DNA of 64,000 bases from Cryobacterium melibiosiphilum (lineage in GTDB: Bacteria > Actinomycetota > Actinomycetes > Actinomycetales > Microbacteriaceae). The DNA lies in the NCBI RefSeq assembly GCF_003602235.1, contig NZ_QZVS01000078.1, positions 1 through 64,000 of the forward strand, read 5' to 3'. Under the pieces are notes generated by a model, which had not been told where the DNA came from, did not search any database, and worked only from the letters and a program-made list of their open reading frames with translations. The position numbers and the translations under genes are program-made. Shown piece after piece: positions 13,087-43,579 of the stretch (position 1 is its first letter; each line of letters begins with the position of its first letter).

Positions 13087-13190
13087 GCGGCGGCATAACT
13101 CCTGCTGGTCGTCGCGGCGGCAGAAAAGTTCCGCGGAATCACGGGCCTCCGTCGCGATCGCCCCACGATCAGCAGGAGTTATGCCGCCGC
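13087..13190. repeat. Palindrome-bounded dispersed element, copy A
   Basis: Inverted arms of 26 bp (containing GGCATAACTCCTGCT and its complement) enclose about 52 bp. The interior shares GAAAAGTTCCGCGGAA and CGGGCCTCCGT with copy B. It lies between the convergent ends of the NrtR-like gene and the peptide transporter operon, where it could also act as a terminator. It is one of seven copies in this window. Confidence 0.9.
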
Positions 13191-13218
13191 AGCGGCCGCC
13201 GCGCTCTCCGCGGCCGGC

Positions 13219-14910
13219 CTAGCTCGCCGCGTCGAGCGCCGGGATGTGCGGGATCGAGTCCAGCAGCATCCGCGTGTACTCGTGCTGCGGCGACGTGAAG
13301 ACGTCGACCACGGCGCCGCGCTCCACGATCTCCCCCGCCTTCATGACCACGATCTGGTCGGCGATCAGCCGCACCACGGCCAGGTCGTGCGAGATGAAGA
13401 GGTAGCTCAGCCCGAGCTCGGTCTGCAGTTTCATGAGCAGCTCGAGAATCTGCGCCTGCACCAGCACGTCGAGGGCCGAGACCGGCTCATCGCAGATGAT
13501 CAGGTCGGGCTCGAGGGCGAGCGCGCGGGCAATGGCGATGCGCTGGCGCTGCCCGCCCGAGAGCTCGGTCGCGAACCGGTCGTAGATGCTCGCGTCGAGC
13601 GCCACCATCTCGAGCAGGTCCATGGCCCGTTCCCGCCGGGCCGCCCGGTTGCCCAGGCGGTAGATCTTCAGTGGCTCCTCGAGAATCTCGCCGACACTCG
13701 CCATCGGGTTCAGTGAGGCGTAGGGGTCCTGAAAGATGGGCTGCACCTGCTTGCGCAGGCCCTTGAGGTCCCGGCCGCGCAGGTGCGCGATATTCGTGCC
13801 GTTGAACTCCACCAGGCCGCTCGTCGGCTCCTCCAGCCGCAGCGCGATGCGTGCCGTCGTGGACTTGCCAGAGCCCGATTCGCCGACGATCGCGAGCGTC
13901 GTGCCCCGGTGCAGGTCGAAGTTGACGCCGGTGACTGCCTTGAAGGTCGTGCGCTTGCCGTCGGTGTGGCTGCGCACGGTGTACTCCTTCACCAGGTCGC
14001 GCACGTGCAGAATCACCGACGCCTCGCCGATCTGGCCGGTCACGGCGGCCGGATTGATCGGCTTCATGCGGGCGGAGGCCAGCGATGGCGCGGATTCCAC
14101 CAGCCGGCGAGTGTACTCGTGCTGGGGATTGCGCAGAATCTGGGCCGACGGCCCCTGCTCCACGATGCGCCCCTTATTCATCACGATGACGGTTTCGGCG
14201 CGCTCGGCGGCAAGACCCAGGTCGTGGGTGACGAGGATCATCGCCGTACCGAGGTCGTGCGTCAGCGAACTGAGGTGGTCCAAAATGGTGCGCTGCACCG
14301 TCACGTCGAGCGCCGAGGTCGGCTCGTCGGCGATCAGCAGTTCGGGCTGGCAGGCGAGCCCGATCGCGATCAGGGCGCGCTGGCGCATCCCACCCGAGAA
14401 TTCGTGCGGGTACTGCCTCGCCCGGGCCGGTGCGTCGGGCAGGCCTGCCCGCGCCAGCAGCTCGTTGACCTTGCCGCGCACGTCTTTACGGGTCGCCTTG
14501 CCGTGCGCCAGCAGCACCTCGGCGAGCTGGTCGCCGACCCGCATCACCGGGTTGAGGTTGGACATCGGATCCTGCGGCACCAGACCAATGTGCTTGCCCC
14601 GGATGCCCCGCAACGCCTTCTCGGAGTAGCCCGCGATATCGGTGCCCCGAAAGAAGATTTCGCCGCTCGTCACATCGCCGTTGCCCGGCAGCAGGCCGAG
14701 CACCGCATTGACGGTGGTGGTCTTGCCCGAACCGGACTCCCCCACGATCGCGAGGGTTTCGCCGCGGTGGAGCGTGAAGCTCACGCCCTGCACCCCGCTC
14801 ACCCGGCCCATCTCGGTCGTGAAGTCCACGGCGAGATCGCGCACGTCGAGAATCACCTCACGCTCCCGGTGCGGGTCGACGGTTTCAGCAACGATCTGGG
14901 TGTCGCTCAT
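13219..14910 (-). CDS. Peptide ABC transporter, fused double ATP-binding subunit (DppD-DppF type)
   Basis: This 563-residue protein is a tandem of two oligopeptide-type ATPase domains. Each has Walker A (GESGSGKTTT in the first, GESGSGKSTT in the second), a signature (LSGGQRQR in the second, FSGGMRQR in the first) and Walker B with DEP. The C-terminal oligopeptide extension is present in both. It powers uptake of peptides through the two permeases encoded just upstream. The ATG at 14910 overlaps the permease stop by four bases, and the gene is last in the operon. Confidence 0.92.
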   Translation of the reverse strand: MSDTQIVAETVDPHREREVILDVRDLAVDFTTEMGRVSGVQGVSFTLHRGETLAIVGESGSGKTTTVNAVLGLLPGNGDVTSGEIFFRGTDIAGYSEKALRGIRGKHIGLVPQDPMSNLNPVMRVGDQLAEVLLAHGKATRKDVRGKVNELLARAGLPDAPARARQYPHEFSGGMRQRALIAIGLACQPELLIADEPTSALDVTVQRTILDHLSSLTHDLGTAMILVTHDLGLAAERAETVIVMNKGRIVEQGPSAQILRNPQHEYTRRLVESAPSLASARMKPINPAAVTGQIGEASVILHVRDLVKEYTVRSHTDGKRTTFKAVTGVNFDLHRGTTLAIVGESGSGKSTTARIALRLEEPTSGLVEFNGTNIAHLRGRDLKGLRKQVQPIFQDPYASLNPMASVGEILEEPLKIYRLGNRAARRERAMDLLEMVALDASIYDRFATELSGGQRQRIAIARALALEPDLIICDEPVSALDVLVQAQILELLMKLQTELGLSYLFISHDLAVVRLIADQIVVMKAGEIVERGAVVDVFTSPQHEYTRMLLDSIPHIPALDAAS

Positions 14911-15797
14911 TTCAGGGCGCCTTTCACTTTGACGGCACGGGAATCGTTGAAGCGCATGCCCACGATGGTGGCCGAGAGCACGAGCAGCAGAATCATCAGC
15001 GACGGGAACAGCGTCTGCCACCAGGCCGAGACGAGCACGCCGTCACGCTGGGCGCTCTGCAGGATGCGGCCCCACGACCAGGTGTCCGGGTCGCCGAGGC
15101 CGAGAAAGCTCAGCCCGGCTTCGGCGATGACCGCGCGCGCTCCGGTGAGCAGCGCGTTCACGATCAGCAGCGGGCTGACCATCGGCAAAATCTCCTTCAG
15201 CATGATGCGCAGCGGCGACGCCCCAATGGCGCGGGCGCCGTCGATGAACGGCATCGCGCTCACGACCAGGGCGTTGGAGCGAATCAGGCGGCAGATCTCG
15301 GGCCAGGAGAAGAACCCGATCACGAGCGTCAGGGTGACGATGCTCGGGCCGACCATCGCGGTCACCACGATCATCAGGGGCAGCAGGGGAAGGGAGAGCA
15401 TGACGTCGGTGATCGTGGTGATCACGGCATCCGCTTTCTTGAAATAGGCCGCGACGATGCCGAGGAAGGCTCCGATCGCCACCGCGAGCAGCCCGGCGAA
15501 GAGGGCGACCAGCAGGCTCATGCGGGTTCCCCAGACGACCTGGGCGAGCACGTCGAGCCCGAGTCCGTCGGTTCCAAACGGATGCGCGGCCGTGGGCGGC
15601 TGCAGAATGTCCGTTCCGAGGCCCGACGGGTAGGGCACGATCATCGGACCGAAAATGCCGATCAGAGCGAAGACGGCGAGCGTGCCGAGCGAGATGTAGC
15701 CCACCGGGCTGCTGAAGAACCGCCGCCAGGTGCGCTGCCGGGGACTCATCCCCCGCGTGAAGCTGGGTGCGGGCGTGTTGATGGCTTGAGTGGTCAT
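14907..15797 (-). CDS. Peptide ABC transporter permease (DppC type)
   Basis: This 296-residue inner-membrane permease has a DppC-type N-terminal cytoplasmic stretch, a first membrane helix near residue 35, and the BPD_transp_1 core with the EAA loop (GARAIGASPLRIMLKEILP) and AEAGLSFLGLG. It forms the channel with the DppB-type partner encoded just before it. The ATG at 15797 opens MTTQAINTPA and overlaps the preceding gene's stop. Confidence 0.92.
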   Translation of the reverse strand: MTTQAINTPAPSFTRGMSPRQRTWRRFFSSPVGYISLGTLAVFALIGIFGPMIVPYPSGLGTDILQPPTAAHPFGTDGLGLDVLAQVVWGTRMSLLVALFAGLLAVAIGAFLGIVAAYFKKADAVITTITDVMLSLPLLPLMIVVTAMVGPSIVTLTLVIGFFSWPEICRLIRSNALVVSAMPFIDGARAIGASPLRIMLKEILPMVSPLLIVNALLTGARAVIAEAGLSFLGLGDPDTWSWGRILQSAQRDGVLVSAWWQTLFPSLMILLLVLSATIVGMRFNDSRAVKVKGALK

Positions 15798-16759
15798 GCG
15801 CGATTCCCCGTTCGGAGTTTGGGGTCCAAAAGCAGGCAGACGAGGTCGGTGAGGAGGTTGGCGAGCACGACGGTGATGGCGAGCAGGATGAAGGCGCCCT
15901 GGAGAATCGGGAAGTCCTGCCGCCCGACCGCTTCGTAGATGAGCGAGCCGATGCCCGGGTAGGCGAACACCGTCTCGGTCAGCACCGCGCCGCCGACGAG
16001 GGTGCCGAGTTGCAGCCCCATCAGGGTGACCGCGGGGATCACGGCGTTGCGCAGCCCGTGGTTCCAGATCACGGCCTGCGACGACAGGCCGCGGGAGCGG
16101 GCGCTGCGAATGTAGTCGGCGCCGAGCACCTGCAGCATGTTCGTGCGCACCGTCAGCGCGTAGGGCCCGATGTTGATGAAGACGAGCGAGAGCAGGGGAA
16201 GGATCAGGTGGGAGATGACGCTGGCAAAGTACTGCGGGCCTTCGACGAAGGAGCTCACGGCGCCGCCGATCGGAAACCAGCCGAGCTTCAGGGCGAACAC
16301 CGCCAGCAGCAGCACGGCCAGGCTCGGAACGAACATGGCTTGGCCGGCCATTCCGAAGAAGCGCAGGGCCTGGTCGGGAAGGCCGTCGCGCTTCACCGCG
16401 GCGGCGACGCCGAGCGGGATGCCGACGACGAGGGTGATGAGAAAGGCGGATCCGGCCAGCAGCAGCGTCCACGGCATCCGGTCGAAGAGCACCTCGGTGA
16501 CCGGTGACTGCGAGTAGAACGAGGAGCCCAGGTTGCCCTGGATCAGTTGCCAGAGGAATAGGCCGTACTGGGTGATGAGCGGCTGGTCGAGGCCGTAGTC
16601 CGCCAGCAGCTTGGCTTCGAGTGCCGGGTCGTTGACCCCGTCGAGCATGAGGGTGGTCGGGCCGCCGGGAAGCAGCCGGAGCAGGAAGAAGGTGATGGTG
16701 ACGGCGATCCAGACGGCCAGAACAGCACGGCCGACACGGGAAACCACGTAGCGAGTCAT
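15794..16759 (-). CDS. Peptide ABC transporter permease (DppB type)
   Basis: This 321-residue protein starts with MTRYVVSRVGRAVLAVWIAV, the typical first helix of DppB permeases, followed by the LPGGP loop, a periplasmic domain, and the EAA loop (SARSRGLSSQAVIWNHGLRN). The C-terminal LLDPKLRTG is also typical. It pairs with the DppC-type gene, overlapping it by four bases. Confidence 0.92.
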   Translation of the reverse strand: MTRYVVSRVGRAVLAVWIAVTITFFLLRLLPGGPTTLMLDGVNDPALEAKLLADYGLDQPLITQYGLFLWQLIQGNLGSSFYSQSPVTEVLFDRMPWTLLLAGSAFLITLVVGIPLGVAAAVKRDGLPDQALRFFGMAGQAMFVPSLAVLLLAVFALKLGWFPIGGAVSSFVEGPQYFASVISHLILPLLSLVFINIGPYALTVRTNMLQVLGADYIRSARSRGLSSQAVIWNHGLRNAVIPAVTLMGLQLGTLVGGAVLTETVFAYPGIGSLIYEAVGRQDFPILQGAFILLAITVVLANLLTDLVCLLLDPKLRTGNRA

Positions 16760-16820
16760 GAGCGAACCTTTCGGGTGACACGAAGGCGTGGGGCGGGCGC
16801 GGCCCGCCCCACGCGAACCG

Positions 16821-18449
16821 CTACGTGGCCGGGACTACCTGGGAGAGGGAGTACGGGTTGACCATGGAGAACGTTTCCGATCCGCTGGGCAGGTACCCCG
16901 TGAAGCGGGAGGAATTGTAGGCATTGCTCAGCGCCTCAACGTAGAGCGGCAACACGTAGGCGTTCTCGTGGATGTACGCGGCCGCCGCCTGGGTGTCGGC
17001 GATGTTGTCGGCCTCGGTGGTCGCGGCCGCAGCGGTCGCGATGAGGGAATCCATCTCGGCATCCACGACGTAGTTGTAGTAGAGCCCGGAGGTGTTGGCC
17101 GAGGAGTACTGCAGGGCGAGGCTCGTGGCCGGGCTGTTGATCTGGTTGAGCTTATGGATGTACAGATCAAAGTCGCCGGTCTTGGCCGCGGCGAGCGACG
17201 TGGCGCGCTCGGAGCAGGCCAGGGAGACGGTGATGCCCGCGGTCGCGAGGTTGTCGCGCACGATCTGCGCGGACTTCGCGTGGTTGGCATTGCCCTGGTC
17301 GCAGAGCAGCTTGAGGTCGATGCCGTCGAAGTAGTCGTCACCGTCGGCATCCGTGTACCCGGCGTCGGTCATCATGGTGCGGGCCTCGTCTGCGGTGAAG
17401 CTCCACTCCTCGATGTCGGGCTGGTAGTCGGTGTAGACCGGCAGCACCGGTCCGACCGGGTGGGTGCCGCGATCCTGCAGCACGCTGGTGAGGATGGCGT
17501 CGGTGTCGATGAGACCCGAGATGACCTGGCGCACGACCACGTCGTCGAGCGGTGCGCTCGAGGCGTTGAAGGTGAGCTTGGAGTAGTTGAGCGCCTCGGT
17601 CGTTTCGACGACCTCGATGTTCGGCTGGCTGGCGAGGCTCGTCACGGCTGACGACGGGATGGAGGGAGCAGCGAGGTCGAGGTCACCGCTCTGCAGGGCG
17701 AGCTGCATGGTGTTGAGGTCGGGGTAGATGCGAAATTCGACTCCCTCGACCGCTTCGTTTCCGTCGGCGGAGAGCGGGTAGCCCTCGTTGCGTTCGAAGG
17801 TATAGCTCTGGCCCTTGGTGATGCCGGTGAGGGTGAACGAGCCGCCGCTGACCCAGGCGTCTTCGTGGGCGTCGATGGGGTACTCGGCCAGGTTCGGCAC
17901 GTCGGCGAAGACGTGCATCGGCAGCACCTTCATCGACCGGGCGAGGTCCTGGGCCCAGCCGTAGCTCGCGCTCTTCATCGTCACCGAGAGTTCGGTGGGC
18001 GAGGTCACCTCGGCGGATGCGAGGTTGCTCGCGATCGTGATCCCGTGCAGCAGCTTGTCGCTGACGAACCGGTCGAGGGTGAACTTCACGTCGTCCGCCG
18101 TGATGGGTTCGCCATCGCTCCAGGAGAACTCGTCGCTCAGCACGATGTCGATGACCATGCCGTCGTCGCTGACCGTGTAGCTTTCGGCGAGGTGGGGCGA
18201 CAGCGTGCCGTCGATTTCGAGGGTGAACAGGTCGGGGTAGAGCTGGTTCATGATGTACTGATCGGAGATGCTGACGTTGTTCAGCGGCGCGAACTGCACG
18301 ACGTCGGTGGTGGTGCCGATACGCAGCACGCCACCCTGGGCAGTTTCGGTGCTGGCCCCGGTGCCGCCGCAGGCCGTGAGGGCGAGCGTGGCGGTCAGGA
18401 GCACGGCGGCGGATTTGGCGAGCGCGGCGGCTCGGGTGCGGTTCTTCAT
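16821..18449 (-). CDS. Peptide ABC transporter substrate-binding lipoprotein (SBP family 5)
   Basis: This 542-residue extracytoplasmic solute-binding protein has a lipoprotein signal with the lipobox LTAC (C27). It continues with family-5 features such as LYPDLFTLEIDGTLSPHLAESY and FSWSDGEPITADDVKFTLDR. It would deliver di- or oligopeptides to the permeases. Its start overlaps the stop of the amidohydrolase gene, so peptide capture and peptide processing are encoded together. Family 5 also includes nickel and sugar binders, so the ligand is inferred from the ATPase and amidohydrolase neighbours. Confidence 0.88.
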   Translation of the reverse strand: MKNRTRAAALAKSAAVLLTATLALTACGGTGASTETAQGGVLRIGTTTDVVQFAPLNNVSISDQYIMNQLYPDLFTLEIDGTLSPHLAESYTVSDDGMVIDIVLSDEFSWSDGEPITADDVKFTLDRFVSDKLLHGITIASNLASAEVTSPTELSVTMKSASYGWAQDLARSMKVLPMHVFADVPNLAEYPIDAHEDAWVSGGSFTLTGITKGQSYTFERNEGYPLSADGNEAVEGVEFRIYPDLNTMQLALQSGDLDLAAPSIPSSAVTSLASQPNIEVVETTEALNYSKLTFNASSAPLDDVVVRQVISGLIDTDAILTSVLQDRGTHPVGPVLPVYTDYQPDIEEWSFTADEARTMMTDAGYTDADGDDYFDGIDLKLLCDQGNANHAKSAQIVRDNLATAGITVSLACSERATSLAAAKTGDFDLYIHKLNQINSPATSLALQYSSANTSGLYYNYVVDAEMDSLIATAAAATTEADNIADTQAAAAYIHENAYVLPLYVEALSNAYNSSRFTGYLPSGSETFSMVNPYSLSQVVPAT

Positions 18450-19720
18450 GCTGTCCTTCTGTCCGTTGAGAGTGCGAGGGCGCGGATGCGGCGGTCGACG
18501 ACGATGGTGCCGTTCTGGATAACCAGGGAGATGTTCTGCGGATCGCCGAGCGAGTGGATGTCGGTGAGCGGGTTGGCCGCGGTCACGACCAGATCCGCGC
18601 GCTTGCCGATTTCGATGCTCCCGGCCTCGTCGTGCAGGCCGAGGAGACGAGCCGCTTCGGTCGTGCCGGCGACAATGGCTCGCATCGGGTCCATGCCGAG
18701 ATCGACCATGATGCCCAGTTCCCGCAGGTTCTGGCCGTGGGGAACCACGCCGCTGTCGGTGCCGAGGGCTACCTTGACCCCCGCGGCGAAGGCCCGTGAG
18801 ATGTTCTCTTCGAGCAGGGCGCGCACCCGGTTCTTCTTCTCGACCGCATAGGCGGTGGCCTTGGTCGGGTCGGGGGGCGTGGTGCCGGTCAGCAGGGTCG
18901 GAACCAGCCAGGCATCGTTGTCGAGCAACAGCTGGATGCCCTCGTCGTCGATGAGGTAGCCGTGCTCGATGCTCTTGATGCCGGCGCGCAGGGCGTTCTT
19001 GATACCGTTCGCGCCCTGAGCGTGCGCGGCGACGTAGACGCCCTTGTTGGTGGCCTCCTCGACGACCGCGCGCATCTCCTTCTCGGTGAAGCCGTCATGT
19101 TCGGGGGCGTCCCTCGGGCTCCACACCCCGCCGGTGGCCATGACCTTGACGACGCCGGCGCCCATCCGCAAAATCTCCCGGGTGAGTTTGCGGGCCGCGT
19201 CTTCGCCGTCGGCAGTCTTGCCGAAGTGCGCGCCGGCCGGGTGGCAGTCGAAGGGCACCGTCAGGGTGCGGGAGTCGGAGTGGCCGCCGGTCGGGCCCAT
19301 GGCGTGGATGGCCATGATCGCCCGAGGCCCGGCGATAATGCCGTGCTCAACGGCCATGGCGAGGGCGTAGTCGCTGCCGGAGAGGTCGCGCACGGTCGTC
19401 ACGCCCGCGTCGAGGGTGCGGCGGGCGTTACGCACGCCTCGAAAGTGAAGGAGGGCATCCGGCTCGTGCAGATACCCGGCGGGGTTCAGGGAGCCGTCCA
19501 TGGCGAGGTGAACGTGCACGTCCATGAAGCCGGGCAGCACGGTGGCGCCGTCGATGTCGACGAACTCGGTGTCGTCGGGCAGGTTCGGGAGTTCGGAGTG
19601 CGGCCCCATCCATTCGATGACTCCGTCGCGCACGACGAGGGATTGCCGGGGTCGTGGCGCGGCCCCCGTGCCGTCGATAATCGTGGCGTTGATCACTGCC
19701 ACTGCCTGATGCGTTTTCAC
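18446..19720 (-). CDS. Amidohydrolase, imidazolonepropionase/prolidase-like subgroup
   Basis: This 424-residue metal-dependent hydrolase shows the binuclear amidohydrolase set: HVH in FMDVHVHL, the bridging lysine in VVKVMATGG, AAHAQG, SIEHGY and the metal aspartate in GTDSG. Relatives include Xaa-Pro dipeptidases (Sgx9260-type) and cytosolic imidazolonepropionase-like enzymes. As first gene of a peptide-uptake operon, a prolidase-like role on imported dipeptides is plausible. I chose the GTG at 19720 because AGGAGG precedes it by seven bases; the open frame upstream lacks a ribosome site. The operon diverges from an Lrp-type regulator. Confidence 0.82.
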   Translation of the reverse strand: MKTHQAVAVINATIIDGTGAAPRPRQSLVVRDGVIEWMGPHSELPNLPDDTEFVDIDGATVLPGFMDVHVHLAMDGSLNPAGYLHEPDALLHFRGVRNARRTLDAGVTTVRDLSGSDYALAMAVEHGIIAGPRAIMAIHAMGPTGGHSDSRTLTVPFDCHPAGAHFGKTADGEDAARKLTREILRMGAGVVKVMATGGVWSPRDAPEHDGFTEKEMRAVVEEATNKGVYVAAHAQGANGIKNALRAGIKSIEHGYLIDDEGIQLLLDNDAWLVPTLLTGTTPPDPTKATAYAVEKKNRVRALLEENISRAFAAGVKVALGTDSGVVPHGQNLRELGIMVDLGMDPMRAIVAGTTEAARLLGLHDEAGSIEIGKRADLVVTAANPLTDIHSLGDPQNISLVIQNGTIVVDRRIRALALSTDRRTA

Positions 19721-19889
19721 GAAAAATCCTCCTGGAGCTAGTCGGGTACGGGTTCCCCTCACGGGCGACTTGATTGGTGATTCAACGTCATGCACGTAAC
19801 AGTCGTGTTGCGGTGCGGAATTCTGATACTTCGGCCGCGTAGATTGCAGATATGTGTCATGCCATAGCGCGAGCGTTTCGATAGATCGG

Positions 19890-20888
19890 ATGCAGCTCGA
19901 CGAACTCGACCGCCAGGTCATTCACGCCCTGCAAATCTGGCCTCGCGCGCCCTGGACCTTTATCGGCGAGGTGTTGGGCGTGGACCCGATGACGGCCTCC
20001 CGGCGCTGGCAGGTGATGGAGGACAACGGCTCCGCCTGGATCTCCGTCTCCGATGTCATCGCGGCCGAGTCCCTGCGCGCCATCATCGATATTCGGGTGA
20101 AATCCAGTCGGCTGCCCGACGCTCTTCTTGCCCTCGAGGCCGACCCGAGCGTGCGCACCCTGCGCTCGGTTCTGGGCGATTGGTCGATCAGCCTCGATTG
20201 GCAGGGTCACGACATCGTCGCCCTGGATGCGTACCTGACCGGCACCCTGACACGGCTGAAGGGCGTCATCGCCACGCGAACCCACATCGTGACCGGGGTT
20301 CTGCTGGAAGGCAGTGCCTGGCGGCTGCGCGCCCTGTCGCAGGAACAGGTTTCGACGCTGATGCACGCGGCCAGCTTTGACGATGTCGCCTCGCCCTCAC
20401 ACGAGGTGCACGAAATCGACGAACAGGTGCTGCGCAACGTCACCCTGGATGGCCGGGCGACGCTGACGAGCCTCGCGGAGCGGATGACGACCAGTGTGGC
20501 AACCGTGCGCCGTCATCTCAACCACATGATCAGTTCCCGGGCGCTGGTCATGCGCTGCGACGTGGCGCGGCCGCTGTCGGGCTGGCCGATCGCGGCACAC
20601 TTCATGTGCACCGTCGATCCGCGGCAGATCGCCGAGGTCGGGGAGGCGCTATCGCGCATCCGGGAGATCAGGGCGGCGCAGGTTCTGGTGGGGCCGTACA
20701 ATCTGTGCCTGAACTTCTGGGTGCGGTCGTTGCCCGAGATCACAGCGCTCGAGGCGCACCTGGCGCGCAACATCCCGCAGATTCGCATCGGGGAACGGTC
20801 GGTCACGTCGAACATGCTCAAGCACATGCAGGTGTCCCTGCGCGGCGACGGTCGGCGCACGGCCGTCGTGGGCGGCGCGGCGGCATAA
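19890..20888 (+). CDS. Lrp/AsnC-family regulator with two HTH domains
   Basis: This protein of about 332 residues has two AsnC-type helix-turn-helix regions: LDELDRQVIHALQIWPRAPW near the N-terminus and ATLTSLAERMTTSVATVRRH in the middle. Each is followed by a ligand-binding RAM-like segment. Such double Lrp proteins are common in actinobacteria and sense amino acids or peptides. It diverges from the amidohydrolase/peptide transporter operon and probably controls it. A GTG at 19854, seven bases past a TAGATT box, is an alternative leaderless start. The stop TAA at 20886-20888 lies inside the left arm of repeat copy B, so the final Gly-Ala-rich residues are partly element-encoded. Confidence 0.8.
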   Translation: MQLDELDRQVIHALQIWPRAPWTFIGEVLGVDPMTASRRWQVMEDNGSAWISVSDVIAAESLRAIIDIRVKSSRLPDALLALEADPSVRTLRSVLGDWSISLDWQGHDIVALDAYLTGTLTRLKGVIATRTHIVTGVLLEGSAWRLRALSQEQVSTLMHAASFDDVASPSHEVHEIDEQVLRNVTLDGRATLTSLAERMTTSVATVRRHLNHMISSRALVMRCDVARPLSGWPIAAHFMCTVDPRQIAEVGEALSRIREIRAAQVLVGPYNLCLNFWVRSLPEITALEAHLARNIPQIRIGERSVTSNMLKHMQVSLRGDGRRTAVVGGAAA

Positions 20889-20977
20889 CTCCTGCAGATC
20901 GTGGCGGCGGTCGAAAAGTTCCGCGGAAAGGCGGGCCTCCGTGCGCGGGGACTCGAGACGTGCAGGAGTTATGCCGC
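20880..20977. repeat. Palindrome-bounded dispersed element, copy B
   Basis: Arms GCGGCATAACTCCTGCA (20880-20896) and its exact complement (20961-20977) enclose about 64 bp. The interior matches copy A (GAAAAGTTCCGCGGAA, CGGGCCTCCGT). The left arm supplies the TAA of the Lrp-type regulator. Confidence 0.92.
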
Positions 20978-21104
20978 GCGCCGGCACGAGCCGAGCCAGA
21001 GTGGGGCCGGATGCCCGCCGGCACTCGCTCCCCTTGTCGTTGACGCTGGCGCCGCGCAGCAGGTCCATCAAGGTATGGGCGTCTGGCCGCACCGGTCGGG
21101 CCGG

Positions 21105-21187
21105 GGCATAACTCCTGCTGAGCGGACGGACGGCACGAATGGCGTCCGAAATTCGGGCGTCCCTCGTCTGCTGGCAGGAGTTATGCC
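21105..21187. repeat. Palindrome-bounded dispersed element, copy C
   Basis: Arms GGCATAACTCCTGC (21105-21118) and GCAGGAGTTATGCC (21174-21187) enclose a diverged interior of 55 bp. It is the second element in the 379-bp gap between the Lrp gene and the next gene. Between copies B and C (20978-21104) I see no gene. Confidence 0.88.
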
Positions 21188-22242: not shown

Positions 22243-22328
22243 CGGCTTAACTCCTGCTCCTCGCCGCGGGACCGCCGAAATCCGGGGACTCTCTGGCCGT
22301 ACCGGGGCATCCAGCAGGAGTTATGCCG
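22243..22328. repeat. Palindrome-bounded dispersed element, copy D
   Basis: Arms CGGCTTAACTCCTGCT (22243-22258) and AGCAGGAGTTATGCCG (22313-22328), with one mismatch, enclose a diverged 54-bp interior. It begins seven bases after the stop codon of the quinone oxidoreductase. Nothing else is supported between 22329 and 22529 except a possible short frame from ATG 22438. Confidence 0.88.
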
Positions 22329-35148: not shown

Positions 35149-35178
35149 TCAATCACCCCTCAAATAATGGAGACCACC

Positions 35179-36219
35179 GTGGAAATCGGCGCCTACAGCT
35201 TCGGCGACACCCAGCTCAACCCCGACGGCAGCTCGCGCTCGACCGCCGAGGCCACCAAGAACCTGTTCGACGCGATCGTGCACGCCGACCGGGTGGGCCT
35301 TGACTACTTCGGCGTCGGCGAGCACCACACGGTGTCGATGCCGGCGTCGTCGCCCGGCACGATCATCGCCGCCGCGGCCGCCGCGACGACGCAGATCACC
35401 CTCGGCAGCGCGGCAAGCATCATCGGAACGGATGACCCGGTGCGGGTCTTTCAGCAGTTCGCGACCGCAGACGCCATCTCGGGCGGCGGCCGCATCGAGA
35501 TCACCGCCGGCCGCGGGTCAAGCGTCGAGACGTTCCCGCTGTTCGGCTACGACCTGAACGACTACGACGAGCTCTATGCCCAGAAGCTCGACCTGCTGCT
35601 CACACTGAACAACAACACGACCGAGAACGTGACTTGGTCGGGAACCGCGCGCCCGTCGCTGCCGGACCTCGCCGTCGTACCCCGCCCGGTGCAGGGCTCG
35701 CTGCCGATCTGGATCGCCACCGGCGGCAGCGCTCCGTCGTCGGCCCGCGCCGGCCGCCTCGGCCTGCCGCTGGCCTACGCCATCATCGGCGGGCAGCCGC
35801 ACCGCTTCGCGCCGCTCGCCCAGCTGTACCGGCAGTCCGCGGCCGCCGCCGGTCACACCGAGAACATCAAGGTCTCGGTTGCGACCTTCGGCCTCGTCGC
35901 ACCGACCAAGAAAGAAGCCGTCGAGCGCATGTACCCGGGCTGGGTCAACCTGAACGTGGAGATGGGCCGGCTGCGCGGCTGGCCGGCACCGCAGAAGGGC
36001 GCCTACCTCGCGCAGGTCGACGCGCCCAACGCCTACTTCGTCGGCGACCCCGACGACGTCGCCGAACGCATCGTGGCCCTGCACGGCCACCTCGGCCACA
36101 TGCGCCACTTCTTCCAGGGCGACCACGGCGGACTGCCGCACGAGTACCTGATGGAGTCGATCACCCTGCTGGCGACCGAGGTCAAGCCGCGGGTGGAGCG
36201 GTTGCTCGCCGCGAAGTAG
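35179..36219 (+). CDS. LLM-class flavin- or F420-dependent oxidoreductase
   Basis: This protein of about 346 residues belongs to the bacterial luciferase-like monooxygenase family: GLDYFGVGEHHTVSMPASSP near residue 45, LGSAASIIGTDDPVRVFQQF, and SGGRIEITAGRGSS. The family binds FMN or F420 and oxidises diverse small molecules. I chose GTG 35179 because GGAG lies six bases upstream; ATG 35167 in frame has no ribosome site. It forms a two-gene unit with the F420 reductase-like gene, probably under MarR control. Confidence 0.87.
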   Translation: MEIGAYSFGDTQLNPDGSSRSTAEATKNLFDAIVHADRVGLDYFGVGEHHTVSMPASSPGTIIAAAAAATTQITLGSAASIIGTDDPVRVFQQFATADAISGGGRIEITAGRGSSVETFPLFGYDLNDYDELYAQKLDLLLTLNNNTTENVTWSGTARPSLPDLAVVPRPVQGSLPIWIATGGSAPSSARAGRLGLPLAYAIIGGQPHRFAPLAQLYRQSAAAAGHTENIKVSVATFGLVAPTKKEAVERMYPGWVNLNVEMGRLRGWPAPQKGAYLAQVDAPNAYFVGDPDDVAERIVALHGHLGHMRHFFQGDHGGLPHEYLMESITLLATEVKPRVERLLAAK

Positions 36220-36259
36220 GCCTCGAGGGCTCCGTCAGGGACGGTGACGGGGCCGGCCG

Positions 36260-36358
36260 CGGCATAACTCCTGCTGATCGCGTGCGGCGGCAGATAGGTT
36301 CCGCGTCATGAAGGGCTTCTGCCGCTGAGGCCGAACACATCAGCAGGAGTTATGACGG
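36260..36358. repeat. Palindrome-bounded dispersed element, copy E
   Basis: Arms GGCATAACTCCTGCTGAT (36261-36278) and ATCAGCAGGAGTTATG (36339-36354) enclose an interior that matches copy F (GGTTCCGCGTC, GGGCTTCTGCCGCT, GGCCGAAC). It lies about 40 bp after the LLM oxidoreductase stop, between convergent genes. Confidence 0.9.
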
Positions 36359-36391
36359 CGGCCTCGCGGAGACACCCCGTCCCGACACGGA

Positions 36392-36423
36392 AAAGGGGCC
36401 GCACCGACCGGTGCGACCCCTTT
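36392..36423. terminator. Bidirectional terminator after the PTS genes
   Basis: AAAGGGG...CCCCTTT encloses a 7-bp inner stem CGCACCG/CGGTGCG, 20 bp after the EIIC stop. A/T runs at both ends allow termination in either direction for the convergent LLM and PTS transcripts. Confidence 0.8.
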
Positions 36424-36443
36424 ATCTGGACTGATATGGCCGA

Positions 36444-37988: not shown

Positions 37989-38042
37989 GAGAGGCTCCCC
38001 TTCTTACTCAGTCGTGCAATTAGTGGTGGGACAGAACCGGCG

Positions 38043-38315
38043 CTACTCGAGCGCGCCGGTGAGCTTTTCGGTGATCTCGTCGAGGTCGAAGAAGTTGTCG
38101 ATCACGATGACCTGGGCGTCGACGTCGCCGATCTCCTCGGCGAGCTCCTCGCTGGTCAGCACGATCTCAGCGTCGCGGGCCATGCCGCGGGCCACGCCGA
38201 TGTCGGCAGCCTCGACGTCGGCGTCGATGCCGAGCGTGCGGAGCACCTTTTCGGTGTTCATTTTCAGGAGAACGGATGTGCCGATCCCCATTCCGCAGAC
38301 CGCGATGATCTTCAT
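38043..38315 (-). CDS. ulaB: PTS ascorbate-type EIIB component
   Basis: This 90-residue cytosolic phosphocarrier starts MKIIAVCGMGIGTSVLLKMN; C7 in the CGMGIGTS loop is the phosphorylated cysteine of the family. It passes phosphate from EIIA to the incoming substrate at EIIC. It overlaps the EIIA gene by four bases and lies 54 bp before EIIC. Confidence 0.9.
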   Translation of the reverse strand: MKIIAVCGMGIGTSVLLKMNTEKVLRTLGIDADVEAADIGVARGMARDAEIVLTSEELAEEIGDVDAQVIVIDNFFDLDEITEKLTGALE

Positions 38316-38794
38316 GAGTGTGCCTTTCGTTCAGCAGTCAGTTCGGGGGTGGACATGAGTGCGAGGACCTCGGCGGGCGAGTCGGCGTTTTTCAGCGCGG
38401 CCAGCTGCTCGGTGTTCATGAGCACGCCGGCCAGGGCCTGCATCATCTCGAGGTGTCCGTCGTGGTCGGGGGCGGCGAGGCCGACGATGAGCGACACCGG
38501 ATCGTTCTTCTTGTGCCCGAAGCTCACGGGAGTCTCGAGGGTGACCCAGCTGAGGCCGGCGCGCAGCACGGCAGGCGAGGGGCGGGAGTGGGCGATGGCG
38601 AGGCCGGGAGCGATGACGATGTAGGGGCCGAGTTTCTCGACGGCGGCGATCATCTCGGCGGTGTAGACGTCGGTCGTGACGCCACCGGCCGCGAGGGCGT
38701 CACCGGCGAGGGTGATTGCGGCCCGCCAGTCGGCGGCGACGGCGTGGGTGCGAATCGACGCCGCGTCGAGATCGTGTGCCAGGTTGACCGTCAT
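38312..38794 (-). CDS. PTS EIIA component (fructose/mannitol-ascorbate type)
   Basis: This 160-residue PTS_EIIA_2 protein carries the phosphorylatable histidine in IVIAPGLAIAHSRPS, and VSLIVGLAAPDHDGHLEMMQ after it. The ATG at 38794 has GAGGAG eight bases upstream and opens MTVNLAHDLD. A longer open frame upstream runs antisense through the ROK gene and is not coding. It is the first gene of the PTS operon. Confidence 0.9.
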   Translation of the reverse strand: MTVNLAHDLDAASIRTHAVAADWRAAITLAGDALAAGGVTTDVYTAEMIAAVEKLGPYIVIAPGLAIAHSRPSPAVLRAGLSWVTLETPVSFGHKKNDPVSLIVGLAAPDHDGHLEMMQALAGVLMNTEQLAALKNADSPAEVLALMSTPELTAERKAHS

Positions 38795-38886
38795 GCGAAG
38801 ACTCCTCGGTTCCGGTCTTCCATTCACAAGACCACATCGTCTGCCCCAATTACCGGGGCTGTGATCCGAGCCTAATGCGGCGCCGC

Positions 38887-38924
38887 GACTTTTGTCTACA
38901 AGTGATCCGAAGTCAGGACTTTTG
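38887..38924 (-). promoter_or_regulatory. Direct repeat in the PTS operon promoter region
   Basis: GACTTTTG occurs at 38887-38894 and 38917-38924, exactly 30 bp (about three helix turns) apart, 90-130 bp before the EIIA start. Such phased half-sites suggest regulator binding. The protein is unknown; the ROK regulator ending at 38950 is the obvious candidate. Confidence 0.3.
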
Positions 38925-38949
38925 GCCCTGCCCCGGATCGCCGTCGGCG

Positions 38950-40110
38950 TCAGCTGCGGGTGAGATGGCTGATGCGGTCGGCGTCGAAGAGGGCGTCCTG
39001 GGCGATGAGTGAGGCGCCGAGCACGCCTGCCTTGTTGCCCAGCCGGCTGGGTTCCACGGTGAGGCCGGTGCCGGAAAAGGCGCGCACCCTGGCCAGCAGG
39101 GCCTCGCGCAGCGACGAGAGGTAGGGGTCGCCGGCCTCGGCGAGCTGGCCGCCGATCACGATCAGGGCGGGGTTCAGCAGCCCGGCAACGTCGACGAGGG
39201 CGTGCCCGATTTCCGCACCGGCCGCGGACAGCAGACGCACGGCATCCGGCGACCCCATACGGCTGAGCGCGACGATATCGCCGGTCGTGCGGATGCGGTA
39301 GCCGAGGGCGTTGAGCTCCCGGCGGATAGCGTAGCCGCTCGCGACGGCCTCGAGGCAGCCGCGCTGACCGCAACTGCAGAGTTCGGTGCCGTGGCGAAAG
39401 CTGTGCGAGAAGTCGCCGGCCCCGCCGCGGGACCCGCGGTAGACCCGGCCGTCGAGCACGAGCGCGCAGCCGATGCCGAGCCCCACCTTGAGTACGGTGA
39501 GGTCTCGGTGCTCGGGCCAGCCGAGCCGCGATTCGGCGACCGCCATGACGTTCACGTCCCGGTCGACGGCGAAGATCGCGCTGTAGTCCTGCGGAAAATG
39601 GTCCTTGACCAGCACGTCGTTCCACTGGGCGTCGATCTGGGGGGCGGCGAGCCGGCCGGTGGCGGCATCCACCGGCCCGGGTACCCCGACGCCGATTCCG
39701 CGCACGTCGGCCCGGGACTTGCCCAGCCCGCGCAGCAGGTAGTCGAAGACCTGGTTCGCCCAGGTGAAGACGGTGTCCGGACCCTCCCAGAGGCCGATCT
39801 CGGCCTGGTCCTCGATGAGGATCGTGGAGACGAGGTCGGTGATCGCGACGCGGGTGTGCGATCCGCCGATGTCGACGCTGAGTAGCAGCCCGGCGTCTTT
39901 ATTGAGGGCGAAGCTCTCGGCGGGTCGGCCGCCGCGGGAGTCGCTCTGGCCCGCCACGACGATGATGCCGGCATGGAGCAGTTCGTCGAGGCGGCGGGCG
40001 AGCGTGATGCGCGACCAGCCGAGCTCGTCGATCAGGGCCGGGCGGGTCGCGATGCCCGCGCGAATGAGGTCGAGAACGACCCCCGAGCCGGTCGACATCG
40101 CATGCGCCAC
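38950..40110 (-). CDS. ROK-family transcriptional regulator
   Basis: This 386-residue protein has an N-terminal winged helix (ALIDELGWSRITLARRLDEL) and a ROK sugar-kinase-like domain with VDIGGSHTRVAI, the zinc motif CSCGQRGCLEAVASG and GLLNPALIVIGGQL. ROK repressors such as NagC and Mlc sense sugars or PTS state. The GTG at 40110 has GAGGAGG five bases upstream. It lies between the PTS operon and a divergent transketolase, so it probably controls one or both. Confidence 0.9.
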   Translation of the reverse strand: MAHAMSTGSGVVLDLIRAGIATRPALIDELGWSRITLARRLDELLHAGIIVVAGQSDSRGGRPAESFALNKDAGLLLSVDIGGSHTRVAITDLVSTILIEDQAEIGLWEGPDTVFTWANQVFDYLLRGLGKSRADVRGIGVGVPGPVDAATGRLAAPQIDAQWNDVLVKDHFPQDYSAIFAVDRDVNVMAVAESRLGWPEHRDLTVLKVGLGIGCALVLDGRVYRGSRGGAGDFSHSFRHGTELCSCGQRGCLEAVASGYAIRRELNALGYRIRTTGDIVALSRMGSPDAVRLLSAAGAEIGHALVDVAGLLNPALIVIGGQLAEAGDPYLSSLREALLARVRAFSGTGLTVEPSRLGNKAGVLGASLIAQDALFDADRISHLTRS

Positions 40111-40135
40111 ACGGTCCTCCTCGTGATTGACTTAA

Positions 40136-40149
40136 GTATATTTATATAC
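40136..40149. promoter_or_regulatory. AT-rich palindrome, candidate ROK operator
   Basis: GTATAT-TT-ATATAC is a perfect 6-bp inverted repeat in the 43-bp spacer between the ROK gene and the transketolase. It overlaps TATACT, a good -10 box for the ROK gene (minus strand). ROK regulators typically bind AT-rich palindromes, so autorepression and joint control of transketolase are likely. Confidence 0.55.
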
Positions 40150-40153
40150 CAAT

Positions 40154-42280
40154 GTGTGCAGTATGACTTTGAAAAATAGTCTTGTCACCATCGATGCCGC
40201 TGTTGATCCGCCCGCCGACGGGCCCGCGGAGGCTGCGGCCGTCGCCGCCGCGATCGCGATCCCCGCCCACATTGTGCAGGCCAAGGGGCACGGCCACGGC
40301 GGCACGGCCATGGCGCTCGCCCCACTCTGCCACGTGCTCTTCTCCCGGGTGCTGCGACACAGCCCGCACAACCCGCACTGGGTCGCCCGGGACCGCCTCG
40401 TGCTCAGCGCCGGGCACGCGAGCCTGATGCTGTACGTGCAACTTTTCCTCACCGGCTACGGCCTGACCCTGGAGGACATCGCGGCCAGCCGCACCCTGGG
40501 TTCGCGCACTCCCGGGCACCCGGAACACGGCCTCACGCTGGGCGTCGAGATGAGCACCGGCCCGCTCGGGCAGGGTGTGGCATCCGCTGTCGGAATGGCC
40601 ATCGCCGCCCGCAAGGAAGCCGCCGCCTTCACCCCAGGGTCGGCGCTGCTCGACCACACGATCTGGGCGATCGCCGGCGACGGATGCCTGCAGGAGGGCG
40701 TCTCGGCCGAGGCCTCGAGCCTCGCGGGCACCCTCGGCCTCGACAATCTCGTGGTGCTCTGGGACGACAACGGCGTCACCATCGACGGCCCGACGACGGA
40801 TGCCTTCGCCGAAGACGTGCGCGCCCGGTACCGGGCCTATGGCTGGCGCGTGCTCGAGGTCGTCGACGCCACCGACCTGACCGAGATCGAGCGGATGCTG
40901 CGCCGCGCCGCCGAGCGCTGCGGTCGCCCCACGCTGGTGGCGGTGAAGACCACGATCGGGGCGCCCTCGACGGTTTTCGGCGGCCGGCCAGCGGCCCACG
41001 CGGGCGGTTTCGGCGCCGAAGAGGTGGCCGCCGTGAAGCGAACCCTGGGCTTCGCCGCCGATGCGACCCTGCAACAGCTCGTCACCCCCGGGGCGCTCGC
41101 ATTCTGTCGACGGGCCGTGCAGCGCGGGCTCGACCTCGAGGCCGCGTGGAACGGGTCGTTCGCGGCCTGGGCCGGGGCCAACCCCGACTCCGCCGCCGCG
41201 TGGCTGGAATTTCGCTCGGGCACGAACCAGCAGGCCGTGGCGGACGCGCTCGACCGGGTCGCGGCCGGCATCACCGAACCCGGCTCCCCGGTCGCCACCC
41301 GCAAGACCAACGGCGCGATCATCCAGGCACTCTCGGGAGTGATGGCCCTCTGGGGCGGATCGGCCGACCTGAGCGGGTCGACGAACGTGTCCCTACCGGG
41401 TGCCGCCGTGTCGGCCGAGAATCCCGGTGGTGCGTTCATCCACTTCGGCATTCGTGAGCACGCCATGGCCGCGATCCTCAGCGGCATCGCCCTGCACGGA
41501 CCCTGGCGTCCGTTCGCCTCGACCTACCTCGTGTTCAGCGACTACCTGCGCCCGGCGCTGCGGCTCGCAGCCCTGATGCGGCTGCCGGTCATCTACGTCT
41601 TCACCCACGATTCGGTCGCCGTGGGCGAGGACGGCCCCACCCACCAGCCGGTCGAGCAGATCGCGTCGCTGCGCACGGTTCCGGGGCTCTCCGTCGTGCG
41701 GCCGGCGGATGCCACCGAAACCGTCGCCGCCTGGCGTCGCCTGGTCGCCCGGCCGGAGGGGTCGACCGCGCTCATCCTGTCGCGGCAGGACGTGCCCGTG
41801 TTGGAGCGGGTGGTGGCCGGCGACGCACGTGACGGCGTGACGGCGCAGGGCACGGCCGACGCCACGACAGGTGTCGCGGCCGGCGGCTACGTCATCTGGC
41901 AGAGCGGCACCGGCCTCGACCTGGCCCTGATCGCGACCGGCAGCGAGGTGGCGCTCGCGATCGCCGCGGCCCGGCGTCTCAGCGAAGAAGATGGCCTGGC
42001 CGTGCGGGTCGTCTCGATGCCGTGCGTCGAGTGGTTTGCCGCCGCCGCCGAGCCGTATCGCCACACGGTATTGCCGCCGTCGTTGACCGCGCGCGTGGCG
42101 GTGGAAGCCGGCCGCACTGACGGCTGGTGGCGCTGGGTCGGATTCGCCGGCGAGGTGGTGGGAATCGACGAGTTCGGCGAGTCCGGAAGCGGCCCGCAGG
42201 TCATGGCACTGCGCGGCGTGACCGAAGAGCACGTGGTCGCCGCGGCGCGACGGGTGGTTGCGCGGGCTGCCGTGGCATAA
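40154..42280 (+). CDS. tkt: Transketolase
   Basis: This full-length 708-residue enzyme transfers two-carbon ketol units between sugar phosphates using thiamine diphosphate. Visible features are LSAGHASLMLY, the ThDP motif GDGCLQEGVSAEASSLAG followed by WDDNGVTIDG, the pyrimidine-domain HFGIREHAMAAIL and FTHDSVAVGEDGPTHQP. Start is GTG 40154 or ATG 40163; neither has a clear ribosome site. It lies next to a PTS and a ROK regulator and is probably a pathway-specific copy, not the housekeeping one. Its TAA at 42278-42280 is provided by repeat copy F. Confidence 0.9.
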   Translation: MCSMTLKNSLVTIDAAVDPPADGPAEAAAVAAAIAIPAHIVQAKGHGHGGTAMALAPLCHVLFSRVLRHSPHNPHWVARDRLVLSAGHASLMLYVQLFLTGYGLTLEDIAASRTLGSRTPGHPEHGLTLGVEMSTGPLGQGVASAVGMAIAARKEAAAFTPGSALLDHTIWAIAGDGCLQEGVSAEASSLAGTLGLDNLVVLWDDNGVTIDGPTTDAFAEDVRARYRAYGWRVLEVVDATDLTEIERMLRRAAERCGRPTLVAVKTTIGAPSTVFGGRPAAHAGGFGAEEVAAVKRTLGFAADATLQQLVTPGALAFCRRAVQRGLDLEAAWNGSFAAWAGANPDSAAAWLEFRSGTNQQAVADALDRVAAGITEPGSPVATRKTNGAIIQALSGVMALWGGSADLSGSTNVSLPGAAVSAENPGGAFIHFGIREHAMAAILSGIALHGPWRPFASTYLVFSDYLRPALRLAALMRLPVIYVFTHDSVAVGEDGPTHQPVEQIASLRTVPGLSVVRPADATETVAAWRRLVARPEGSTALILSRQDVPVLERVVAGDARDGVTAQGTADATTGVAAGGYVIWQSGTGLDLALIATGSEVALAIAAARRLSEEDGLAVRVVSMPCVEWFAAAAEPYRHTVLPPSLTARVAVEAGRTDGWWRWVGFAGEVVGIDEFGESGSGPQVMALRGVTEEHVVAAARRVVARAAVA

Positions 42281-42369
42281 CTCCTGCAGATCGTCGGCGG
42301 CGGCAGAAAGGTTCCGCGTCGTTATGGGCTTCTGCCGCTCGGGCCGAACGATTCTGCAGGAGTTATGCC
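42274..42369. repeat. Palindrome-bounded dispersed element, copy F
   Basis: Arms GGCATAACTCCTGCAGA (42274-42290) and TCTGCAGGAGTTATGCC (42353-42369) are exact complements. The interior matches copy E (GGTTCCGCGTC, GGGCTTCTGCCGCT, GGGCCGAAC). The left arm supplies the stop codon of transketolase. Confidence 0.92.
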
Positions 42370-42533
42370 GCCACCGCGCGCGGAACGCACTTTCAGTCGC
42401 CCTGACATAGCATCGAAGGGGCTGCCGCCACTGTGACGGTTGCTCCGCTCGGCCCAATCAGCCCTACCCCGTCAGCTCCACCCCCTCTGCTCCCACCCCT
42501 CTGCTCCCTCGTCGCCGGAAAGGCCCGCCCCAC

Positions 42534-43403
42534 ATGACCTATCCCGTTGCCGATACCCGCGTGACCTATGCGGCGGGGGCGGCGGAGGCATCCGCGCTCG
42601 TGCTGCACGTGGAGGACCTCAGCGACGGCCGCCGCGCGGTTCTGCTCGATACGACGTGCGCGCACCCCGTGGATGCCGGCTGGCCCGACCAGGGTGCCGA
42701 CCAGGCCGTGCTGCGCACCGAAACCGGCGACATCGCCCTGCTCGACTGCATCGTGGGCGCCACCGACGGCATCGGCTTGCACCTCGGGCGCGAGATTCCG
42801 GTACCCAAGGGCGCCGCGGGCTGGGCCTTCGTCGCGGCCCATATTGTCGCGGCCGGTGCCCCGATCGCCGAGGGTGACGCGGTGCGGGTCGTGGTCGACC
42901 CGGGCGTGCGCGCCCGCACCTCCGCGGGGCACACCGCCTGCCATCTTGCGTCGCTCGCCCTGAATCTGGCCGTCGAAGACCGCTGGAAGAAGCAGCCGCG
43001 GCCCGACGCCCTCGGCCGCCCCGACTTCGACGGCACGGCGATCGACGTGTCCCTGATCGGAGAGAACACCTCGACCGACGCCTACCGACTCGGCAAATCC
43101 CTGCGCAAGAAGGGCTTCGTGACCGAGGGGCTCGACGAGGCACTCCCGCTGCTGGCCGAGACGATCAACACGACGCTCGCCGACTGGGTGGCGACGGATG
43201 CCGCGGTGCGCATCGACCGCGACGGTGACGCTCTCACCGACCGTCGCTACTGGGTCTGTGAGCTCCCCGGAACCTCGGCGCGCATCCCGTGTGGCGGCAC
43301 CCACGTGTCGCGGCTGGGCGAACTCGGCCGGGTTCGGGTCACGCTCGAGTTGCACGACGTGGACGGCACGAGCGTGCTCACGATGGTCACAACGGTCGGC
43401 TGA
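42534..43403 (+). CDS. Alanyl-tRNA editing protein (AlaX-like)
   Basis: This 289-residue protein resembles the editing domain of alanyl-tRNA synthetase. Zinc ligands are visible in RTSAGHTACHLAS (HxxxH) and in CGGTHVSRLGEL (C and H). AlaX proteins hydrolyse serine or glycine wrongly attached to tRNA-Ala. The N-terminal 90 residues form the usual beta-rich lead domain, with LDTTCAHPVDAGWPDQG. It stands alone between repeat copies F and G. Confidence 0.82.
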   Translation: MTYPVADTRVTYAAGAAEASALVLHVEDLSDGRRAVLLDTTCAHPVDAGWPDQGADQAVLRTETGDIALLDCIVGATDGIGLHLGREIPVPKGAAGWAFVAAHIVAAGAPIAEGDAVRVVVDPGVRARTSAGHTACHLASLALNLAVEDRWKKQPRPDALGRPDFDGTAIDVSLIGENTSTDAYRLGKSLRKKGFVTEGLDEALPLLAETINTTLADWVATDAAVRIDRDGDALTDRRYWVCELPGTSARIPCGGTHVSRLGELGRVRVTLELHDVDGTSVLTMVTTVG

Positions 43404-43480
43404 GCGGCATCCGATACACGGTGCCGCGCCGGCGCAGACCCGCCGCGGGGATCATCCCGCGTGACCCCTGCGGCGTCGCG

Positions 43481-43579
43481 GCGGCACAACTCCTGCAGAT
43501 CGTGGGCAGCGCCTGGGAAGCACCGCGAGATGACGGGCCTCCGTCGTCGGCGCAGCGCGATCTGCAGGAGTTATGCCGC
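43481..43579. repeat. Palindrome-bounded dispersed element, copy G
   Basis: Arms GCGGCACAACTCCTGCAGAT (43481-43500, one mismatch) and ATCTGCAGGAGTTATGCCGC (43560-43579) enclose an interior that keeps CGGGCCTCCGTCG of copies A and B. It lies between the convergent AlaX-like and zinc-ribbon genes. Confidence 0.9.

Follow-up and report, generated by a model that had tools for sequence, protein, structure and literature searches.

Introduction

In Pseudomonas and E. coli, the systems formed by doublets of repetitive extragenic palindromic (REP) sequences, the REPINs, and REP-associated tyrosine transposases (RAYTs) comprise several arm types per genome, each lying beside its own distinct single-copy gene, as described in passages of one study (PMC3116915). 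For AbiEi, the antitoxin of a type IV toxin-antitoxin system, passages of a second study report that monomers bind two inverted repeats cooperatively and bend the DNA, and that the repeats of a relative, Rv2827c, lie 10 bp further apart (PMC7319586). The MTES_1575 domain is named, in a passage of a third, as a novel Vsr restriction endonuclease (REase) in a multidomain HEPN protein (PMC3710099). The present work concerns a stretch of 64,000 nucleotides from Cryobacterium melibiosiphilum (assembly GCF_003602235.1, contig NZ_QZVS01000078.1, positions 1 to 64,000; hereafter the window, and its genome the own genome, G000), in which seven intergenic elements, A to G, are bounded by the inverted arms GCATAACTCCTGC / GCAGGAGTTATGC (type-1 arms), and a gene located outside the window that lies between two such elements in this and related genomes.

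We propose that both belong to a two-part system, in which an AbiEi-like/Vsr-type nuclease protein would act on a cognate population of two-armed elements through looping, cutting and spread, a reading to which we give a probability of roughly 0.6. It starts from features that can be read in the DNA and its translations, namely the elements, their length classes, the A/T phasing, the gene-element linkage, the arm type that tracks the protein clade and the conserved nuclease residues. The linkage of arm type to protein clade, as judged from the compared loci, is the firmest of our conclusions and very probably holds. The system appears to be undescribed; the searched open-access literature contained no description of it among the matches listed for DUF559, MTES_1575, AbiEi and Microbacteriaceae REP/MITE topics (MITE, miniature inverted-repeat transposable element), and the arm letters returned nothing relevant.

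Results

A gene for a predicted AbiEi-like/Vsr-type protein lies between type-1 elements

The gene placed between two elements was first spotted in five species. Homologs of at least 60% identity, called close homologs below, were found in 22 of the 57 genomes of the genus, the own genome included, and a covariance model built from 60 type-1 copies placed elements to either side of the gene in every one of these 22 genomes, simple arm matching doing so in 21. Twenty of the 22 flanked genes occupy one syntenic locus, as judged by flank similarity, with neighbours that look like glpK and a HAD hydrolase, and G000 and G029 carry the gene and its elements at two other places, the own-genome unit lying between adenosine-deaminase-like and acetyltransferase-like genes and that of G029 at a third place (gene names from reading translations). 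The own-genome copy (G000:C68:177238-178122) codes for a protein of 295 aa. Four of the close homologs (L342, L344, L346 and L352) contain one internal stop codon, and elements persist in those genomes. The median number of type-1 model matches per genome was 40.5 in the 22 genomes with a close homolog versus 20 in the 35 without, each element being matched on both strands and at most 75 candidates being scored, so that high counts are lower bounds.

A Pfam scan of two of the proteins pointed to REase_MTES_1575 (PF18741), AbiEi_4 (PF13338) and DUF559 (PF04480), the sole match above the Pfam cut-off being DUF559 in one of the two, with PF18741 and PF13338 below it, and NCBIfam gave no match for the partner protein. 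The predicted structure, with a mean predicted local distance difference test (pLDDT) of 92 and a predicted template-modelling score (pTM) of 0.87, was compared by Foldseek, which ranked AbiEi (6y8q_A) at the top with E 2.4e-5 and TMt 0.54 for the N-terminal about 190 residues. The C-terminal part matched the catalytic domain of I-Bth0305I (TMt 0.80 at E 0.02), Vsr (1cw0, E 0.024) and also 3hrl, all in the E range of 0.01-0.06; a profile search returned 3hrl, which is endonuclease-like, with E 5.2e-5. Residues E190, D217, E227, H234 and D243 are invariant across the 50 rows of the alignment and present in 19 of 19 further homologs. On these models, the partner protein is predicted to consist of an AbiEi-like N-terminal region, with a winged helix-turn-helix (HTH) and a second AbiEi domain, and of a C-terminal Vsr/homing-endonuclease-type nuclease. 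The gene flanked by elements is not a transposase. At E<=1e-25, homologs were present in 141 of 299 genomes and 53 of 85 genera of the family.

Arm type follows the protein clade

Eight homologs of 49-54% identity, from the same genus and the same locus, are flanked by the arm GGCTAACTCAGGAGA or close variants (type 2), which a script recovered on both sides within 2 mismatches in seven of the eight, the diverged downstream copy of L359 being spotted by eye. Type-2 arm pairs were present in 16 of the 57 genomes (control 0), that is in 10 of the 14 genomes whose best homolog belongs to the type-2 clade versus 6 of the 43 others. The type-4 arm, TTCGACGGA, was first met as a third palindrome in an intergenic gap of G363 and G062, and then beside the G363 homolog. 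Its pairs occur in 22 of the 57 genomes (control 0), with up to 134 copies (G025) and 7 exact pairs in the own genome, where a second homolog (G000:C66:5936-6751, L438) has TTCGACGG-armed type-4 elements on both sides.

Other genera were represented by 25 best homologs, one per genome, of 38-51% identity, two of them with truncated flanks. An arm common to both flanks was found at 13 of these 25 loci (AACTCCTGC, AACTCAGGC, AACTCATGC, AACTCAGCC, AACTCCTGA, AACTCCTCA and others), and null trials gave such an arm in 0/600 cases with the window, 0/750 with shuffled sequence and 0/492 with own loci; flanks swapped between loci gave 21/600, a rate partly due to several loci sharing AACTCCTGC. Twenty further loci, comprising 7 more clade members and 13 more distant homologs, yielded a shared flank arm in 14 cases, nine at 9-mers (null 0/800) and five only at 8-mers (null 3/800).

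Across 24 loci, in Mantel tests uncorrected for kinship, the arm distance correlated with the distance of the HTH (r 0.38) and with that of the nuclease (r 0.35). With the nuclease held, the partial correlation was 0.23 for the HTH (p 0.010) and 0.06 for helix 20-36 alone (p 0.27). Wing residue 40 (D or G) seemed at first to track arm type and is kept as no more than a hint: G accompanies 10 of 10 AGG-type arms and 1 of 14 others in a post hoc comparison, but every more distant homolog for which an arm was found also has G, irrespective of that arm.

Further arms were also seen beside homologs. The type-4 (TTCGACGG) arm recurs at L436, L437 and L439, and more arm types (GAATTCAGG, TGCAGGAT, TGACAGCTG, AACGACGCC and GCAGGCTGAA) occur at L441, L442, L443, L446, L435, L391 and L392, where some of the elements are shorter (56-59 bp).

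Element lengths step by about one helical turn

A tolerant arm search at 45-130 bp gave 118 distinct elements in the fetched loci, most of which had been retrieved by an exact-arm pattern of 76-106 bp, and their lengths were 80-82 bp (22 elements), 90-94 bp (95) and 103 bp (1). Measured from AAC to GTT, the lengths fall at 62-64, 72-74, 82-87 and 94-96 bp with none between (n=233), in three data sets made of type 1 (n=125), type 2 (n=75 of 82 copies) and other genera (n=33); L392 (58/58 bp) and L393 (85/85 bp), the arms of which lack the AAC anchor, were left out, and the paralog elements, such as those of L437, are outside the list. The class means are 63.0, 73.2, 84.6 and 94.7 bp, and the best periods in the three data sets are 11.5, 10.8 and 10.9 bp. 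The length classes are spaced about one helical turn apart. Orthologous sites also differ by whole steps, with 92/81/81 bp at one locus, read as lysC-asd, and 82/92/103 bp at another. The first-pass annotation of the window had instead divided the elements into two interior subtypes with C and D diverged, a division replaced here by length classes, A to G measuring 92, 92, 81, 82, 94, 94 and 93 bp.

In the short type-1 elements (n=23), A/T runs recur every 10 bp with a z-score of 23.9 against shuffled interiors, which preserve composition and not kinship, and the type-4 elements (n=38) have an A/T period of 10 with a z-score of 25.1. Inside, elements of the long class share little beyond a CCGCGTGATTCCGGGG-like motif at the centre. 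RNAalifold predicted the arm stem alone, with a covariation term of 0.05; the arms can pair as a single-strand stem, and the interior has no consensus fold. Taken together, the length steps, the A/T phasing and the RNA fold limited to the arm stem favour a double-stranded loop bridged by protein. An attC-like single-strand structure or another conserved RNA fold was considered and rejected, as the interior lacks a consensus structure and an Rfam search of the window at the gathering threshold was empty.

Placement, gain and loss of the elements

The gene context of 119 elements was judged with a home-made gene caller. The flanking genes are convergent at 31 of them, tandem at 62 and divergent at 21; 5 have no called gene on one side, none of the 119 lies inside a called gene, and in 12 an arm overlaps the stop codon of the neighbour. 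Placement directly behind the 3' end of a gene, reported earlier for all seven window elements, holds in the window for seven of seven (C lying 217 bp behind) and is no rule in the family with its mixed contexts. The role of a recruited terminator, also suggested earlier, is not supported as a general one in view of the divergent placements and of a predicted fold confined to the arm stem. That the perfect arms are transcribed stems of RNA hairpins or terminators seems to us highly improbable: symmetric arms would work on either strand and many copies do follow a gene, yet the arms hardly vary, the covariation is as low as given above, the interior has no consensus fold, divergent placements occur, and stems of this kind would not account for lengths that step by helix turns throughout the three data sets.

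For one intergenic gap, 13 genomes were compared, and all but G001, G024 and G338 were informative, leaving 10. It holds type 1 in G032, G370 and G026, a type 2-like element in G011 and G025, type-2 and type-1-like elements in G005, type 4 in G363 and G062, and no element in G007 (38 bp) and G018 (67 bp). A second gap contains type 1 in G363, G062 and G370 and none in G007. Length jumps at orthologous loci had been considered as proof of vertical descent, an argument weakened by the finding that one gap holds different element types between species.

In nine orthologous pairs, identity was 297/306 (97%) in the arms, a value biased upwards because most of those loci were found by exact arms, 367/515 (71%) in the interiors and 423/760 (56%) in the 40-bp flanks. 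Such a contrast would suit the main alternative, a non-mobile regulatory or architectural role, which we regard as unlikely though deserving of weight. Here, the elements would be fixed binding sites, the AbiEi-type protein a regulator or chromosome-folding factor and the arm pairs selected repression or architectural loops, gains and losses being ordinary turnover and the gene-adjacent elements autoregulatory. Helical phasing is typical of loop-forming regulators, and it counts in favour of such sites. So does the description, in passages of PMC7319586, of AbiEi relatives as autorepressors on inverted repeats. The placement of the elements, however, ignores promoters, the count per genome ranges from 0 to 134 pairs (type 4), the nuclease residues are conserved, elements also lie behind the gene, the unit is found at three places, and the arm identity is inflated as stated.

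A target-site test at the arm edge of the 119 elements gave values above permutation at 2 bp (z 4.8) and 4 bp (z 3.5), far below it at 3 bp (z -5.5) and nothing at 5-9 bp. Symmetric C/G next to the arms fits such an alternating pattern better than duplication does, and very short duplications may still occur. Mobility of the elements as MITEs through a DDE transposase that has escaped recognition, with the AbiEi-nuclease gene as a passenger and the length classes arising from synapsis of very short ends, appears improbable on these data. Terminal inverted repeats, dispersed copies and gap contents that vary between species would fit it, and very short IS50 derivatives are known to depend on helical phase; but in many lineages of the homolog the passenger would have to be flanked by an arm matched to it, the target-site test gave no clear duplication, and in the own-genome loci and the window the arms form pairs of 81-94 bp, with no unpaired arm (0-1 mismatch) across the window and 30 scanned loci, of which 20 belong to the own genome. 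No autonomous element with the same ends was found in the loci scanned, where the gene between elements is the AbiEi-nuclease, and no genome-wide transposase survey was made.

The first-pass annotation had likened the elements to a non-autonomous family of the MITE or REP/BIME type (BIME, bacterial interspersed mosaic element). What stands of this likeness is a set of dispersed, extragenic, inverted arm pairs with a cognate trans-acting gene outside the window; a DDE-type MITE, with the flanked gene and the target sites as described, and a REP/RAYT system are not supported, the RAYT transposase domain (PF01797) having been detected in none of the 41 genomes searched in the genus and in 5 of 14 control genomes. 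Its statement that the window has no transposase was checked against ten neighbouring proteins, a part of the window.

Copies in the own genome and in relatives

That the seven elements belong to a larger family was borne out by further copies. The own genome (4.7 Mb, 97 contigs) contains 40 exact 14-bp arms and 19 pairs in which each 13-bp arm is exact, with 0 in the control for each. Exact type-1 pairs were found in the own genome and 28 of 36 other genomes of the genus, in 9 of 299 genomes and 3 of 85 genera of the family sample, and in 0 of 23 genomes of other families. Matches to the covariance model extend to 53 of the 57 genomes of the genus, all except G015, G016, G027 and G063, and to 7 of 13 genomes of the sister genus (that of G139). 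The family is not an already catalogued repeat as far as the Rfam search of the window (0 at the gathering threshold) and the arm-letter search of open-access text go.

On the 3.3-Mb contig C1 of G139, the elements are clustered, 16 of the 25 listed places lying at 0.12-0.75 Mb and 6 at 2.23-2.34 Mb. Among the listed viral matches to the arm (120 stretches), no arm pair at element length was seen. Single exact arm copies in Nocardioides (L014, L058, L064 and L068) were read as the ribosome-binding site and ATG of a chaperonin-like gene, and are chance matches rather than elements.

The seven elements of the window

All seven elements were confirmed at the positions first reported for them. A search with the 14-bp arm at up to 3 mismatches gave 15 matches in the window, 14 of which are the arms of A to G (11 exact and 3 with one mismatch), the fifteenth, at position 42928, having 3 mismatches and lying outside them; shuffled windows gave a mean of 3.96 and a maximum of 10, so that the real count exceeds every one of the 100 shuffles. 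Lengths below are distances between the outer ends of the 13-bp arms, and none of the elements is assigned a strand. Element A (13093..13184, 92 bp, both arms exact) lies between convergent genes for a NUDIX/NrtR-type protein and an ABC transporter ATPase. Element B (20883..20974, 92 bp, both arms exact) has in its left arm the TAA stop of an AsnC/Lrp-type gene (19854-20888), and element C (21106..21186), of the short class with 81 bp and both arms exact, begins 131 bp past the end of B. Element D (22245..22326, 82 bp) is also of the short class and has 1 mismatch in one arm. Element E (36262..36355, 94 bp, 1 mismatch in one arm) is located between convergent genes for a luciferase-like monooxygenase and PTS EIIC, the left arm of element F (42275..42368, 94 bp, both arms exact) contains the TAA stop of a transketolase gene (40154-42280), and element G (43484..43576) measures 93 bp with 1 mismatch in one arm.

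In B and F, the stop codon of the upstream gene falls inside the arm as GCA TAA, at 20883-20888 and 42275-42280, respectively. Tandem neighbours such as B and C occur also at L248, L251 and L261; at L248:2982-3254 and L261:1501-1775, similar interiors and a spacing of 180-194 bp suggest local duplication.

Discussion

In the two-part system proposed here, an element would be made of two inverted arms of 13-18 bp around a spacer of about 45, 56 or 67 bp. Two protein molecules, one per arm, would meet and loop the intervening DNA, and the loop would close well only with both arms on the same face of the helix, a requirement which we propose as the origin of lengths in whole turns and of phased A/T tracts in tight loops. 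The conserved nuclease would then cut or nick the DNA, and elements would be spread or restored between genes by repair or strand transfer, in the manner of homing or of REPIN-RAYT. Protein bridging of the arms in a loop is suggested by the length steps and the A/T phasing, and would agree with the behaviour of AbiEi; nuclease-driven spread would explain most economically why the elements are dispersed, why they flank the gene on either side and why the unit has relocated. Binding, looping, cutting and mobilisation of the elements are what we infer.

Several observations weigh against this system. The close homolog is absent from 35 of the 57 genomes, 31 of which still have type-1 matches, so that the elements may outlive the gene or another homolog may serve them, and the common locus of 20 of the 22 flanked genes reflects shared descent. 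No shared arm was found by script at 12 of the 25 other-genus loci and 6 of the 20 further ones, three of these 18 ending at contig ends. Despite having a homolog, G015 and G016 lack type-1 matches and exact pairs of types 2 and 4, an own arm being found at L433 (G016) and none at L434 (G015); type-2 and type-4 pairs are also present in genomes without the expected clade, and the statistical tests ignore phylogeny. The flank element of L437, with 67 bp versus 73, misfits the length steps, and the A/T periodicity of the long class is weak at 10 bp (z 5.2) and maximal at 13-14 bp. Finally, neither a clear target-site duplication nor a clean insertion junction was found, and the empty sites are too diverged for telling insertion from deletion.

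With a confidence slightly below that given to the two-part system itself, we lean to the view that it represents widespread actinobacterial selfish or domesticated systems, in which AbiEi-fold proteins of the homing-endonuclease type would each own helically phased, curved two-armed loops, several such systems coexisting per genome and filling the same gaps across species. The many proteins that combine an AbiEi-like part with a nuclease part of the MTES_1575/DUF559 type would then gain a partner and a testable role. If mobilisation is true, bacteria would have evolved, independently of REPIN-RAYT, a second way for populations of short sequences to maintain themselves in a genome. The elements would also be a natural record of the limits of DNA twist and bending, open to tests in vitro and readable from sequence in the helix-turn length steps and in the phased A/T tracts of the shortest loops.

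MITEs, Correia/NEMIS and ERIC repeats are, as the elements described here, short, intergenic and bounded by inverted repeats. The present elements differ from them by barely conserved interiors and stepped lengths, and no transposase with these ends was found in the loci scanned. The C-terminal fold and the invariant E, D, H and D resemble the Vsr-like/EDxHD homing endonucleases such as I-Bth0305I, an EDxHD enzyme, at Foldseek E-values of only 0.01-0.06. Unlike genes for homing endonucleases, the partner gene was not seen within an intron or intein, and its candidate targets are tens of two-armed repeats. The N-terminal region is predicted to share the fold of the AbiEi antitoxin, from which the partner protein differs by its extra nuclease domain; the arms here are about 45-67 bp apart versus 3 or 13 bp for AbiEi repeats, and many sites genome-wide contrast with one promoter for AbiEi. 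The closest likeness in organisation, as far as the passages of PMC3116915 describe it, is to REPIN-RAYT: the elements are extragenic, inverted doublets of a short conserved arm and a spacer, and each repeat type lies beside a cognate gene, here from a different gene family. In place of the Y1/HUH transposase (PF01797), the enzyme of the present system would be an AbiEi protein with a Vsr-like nuclease, and its elements are marked by helix-turn length steps and phased A/T tracts rather than by a conserved hairpin interior.

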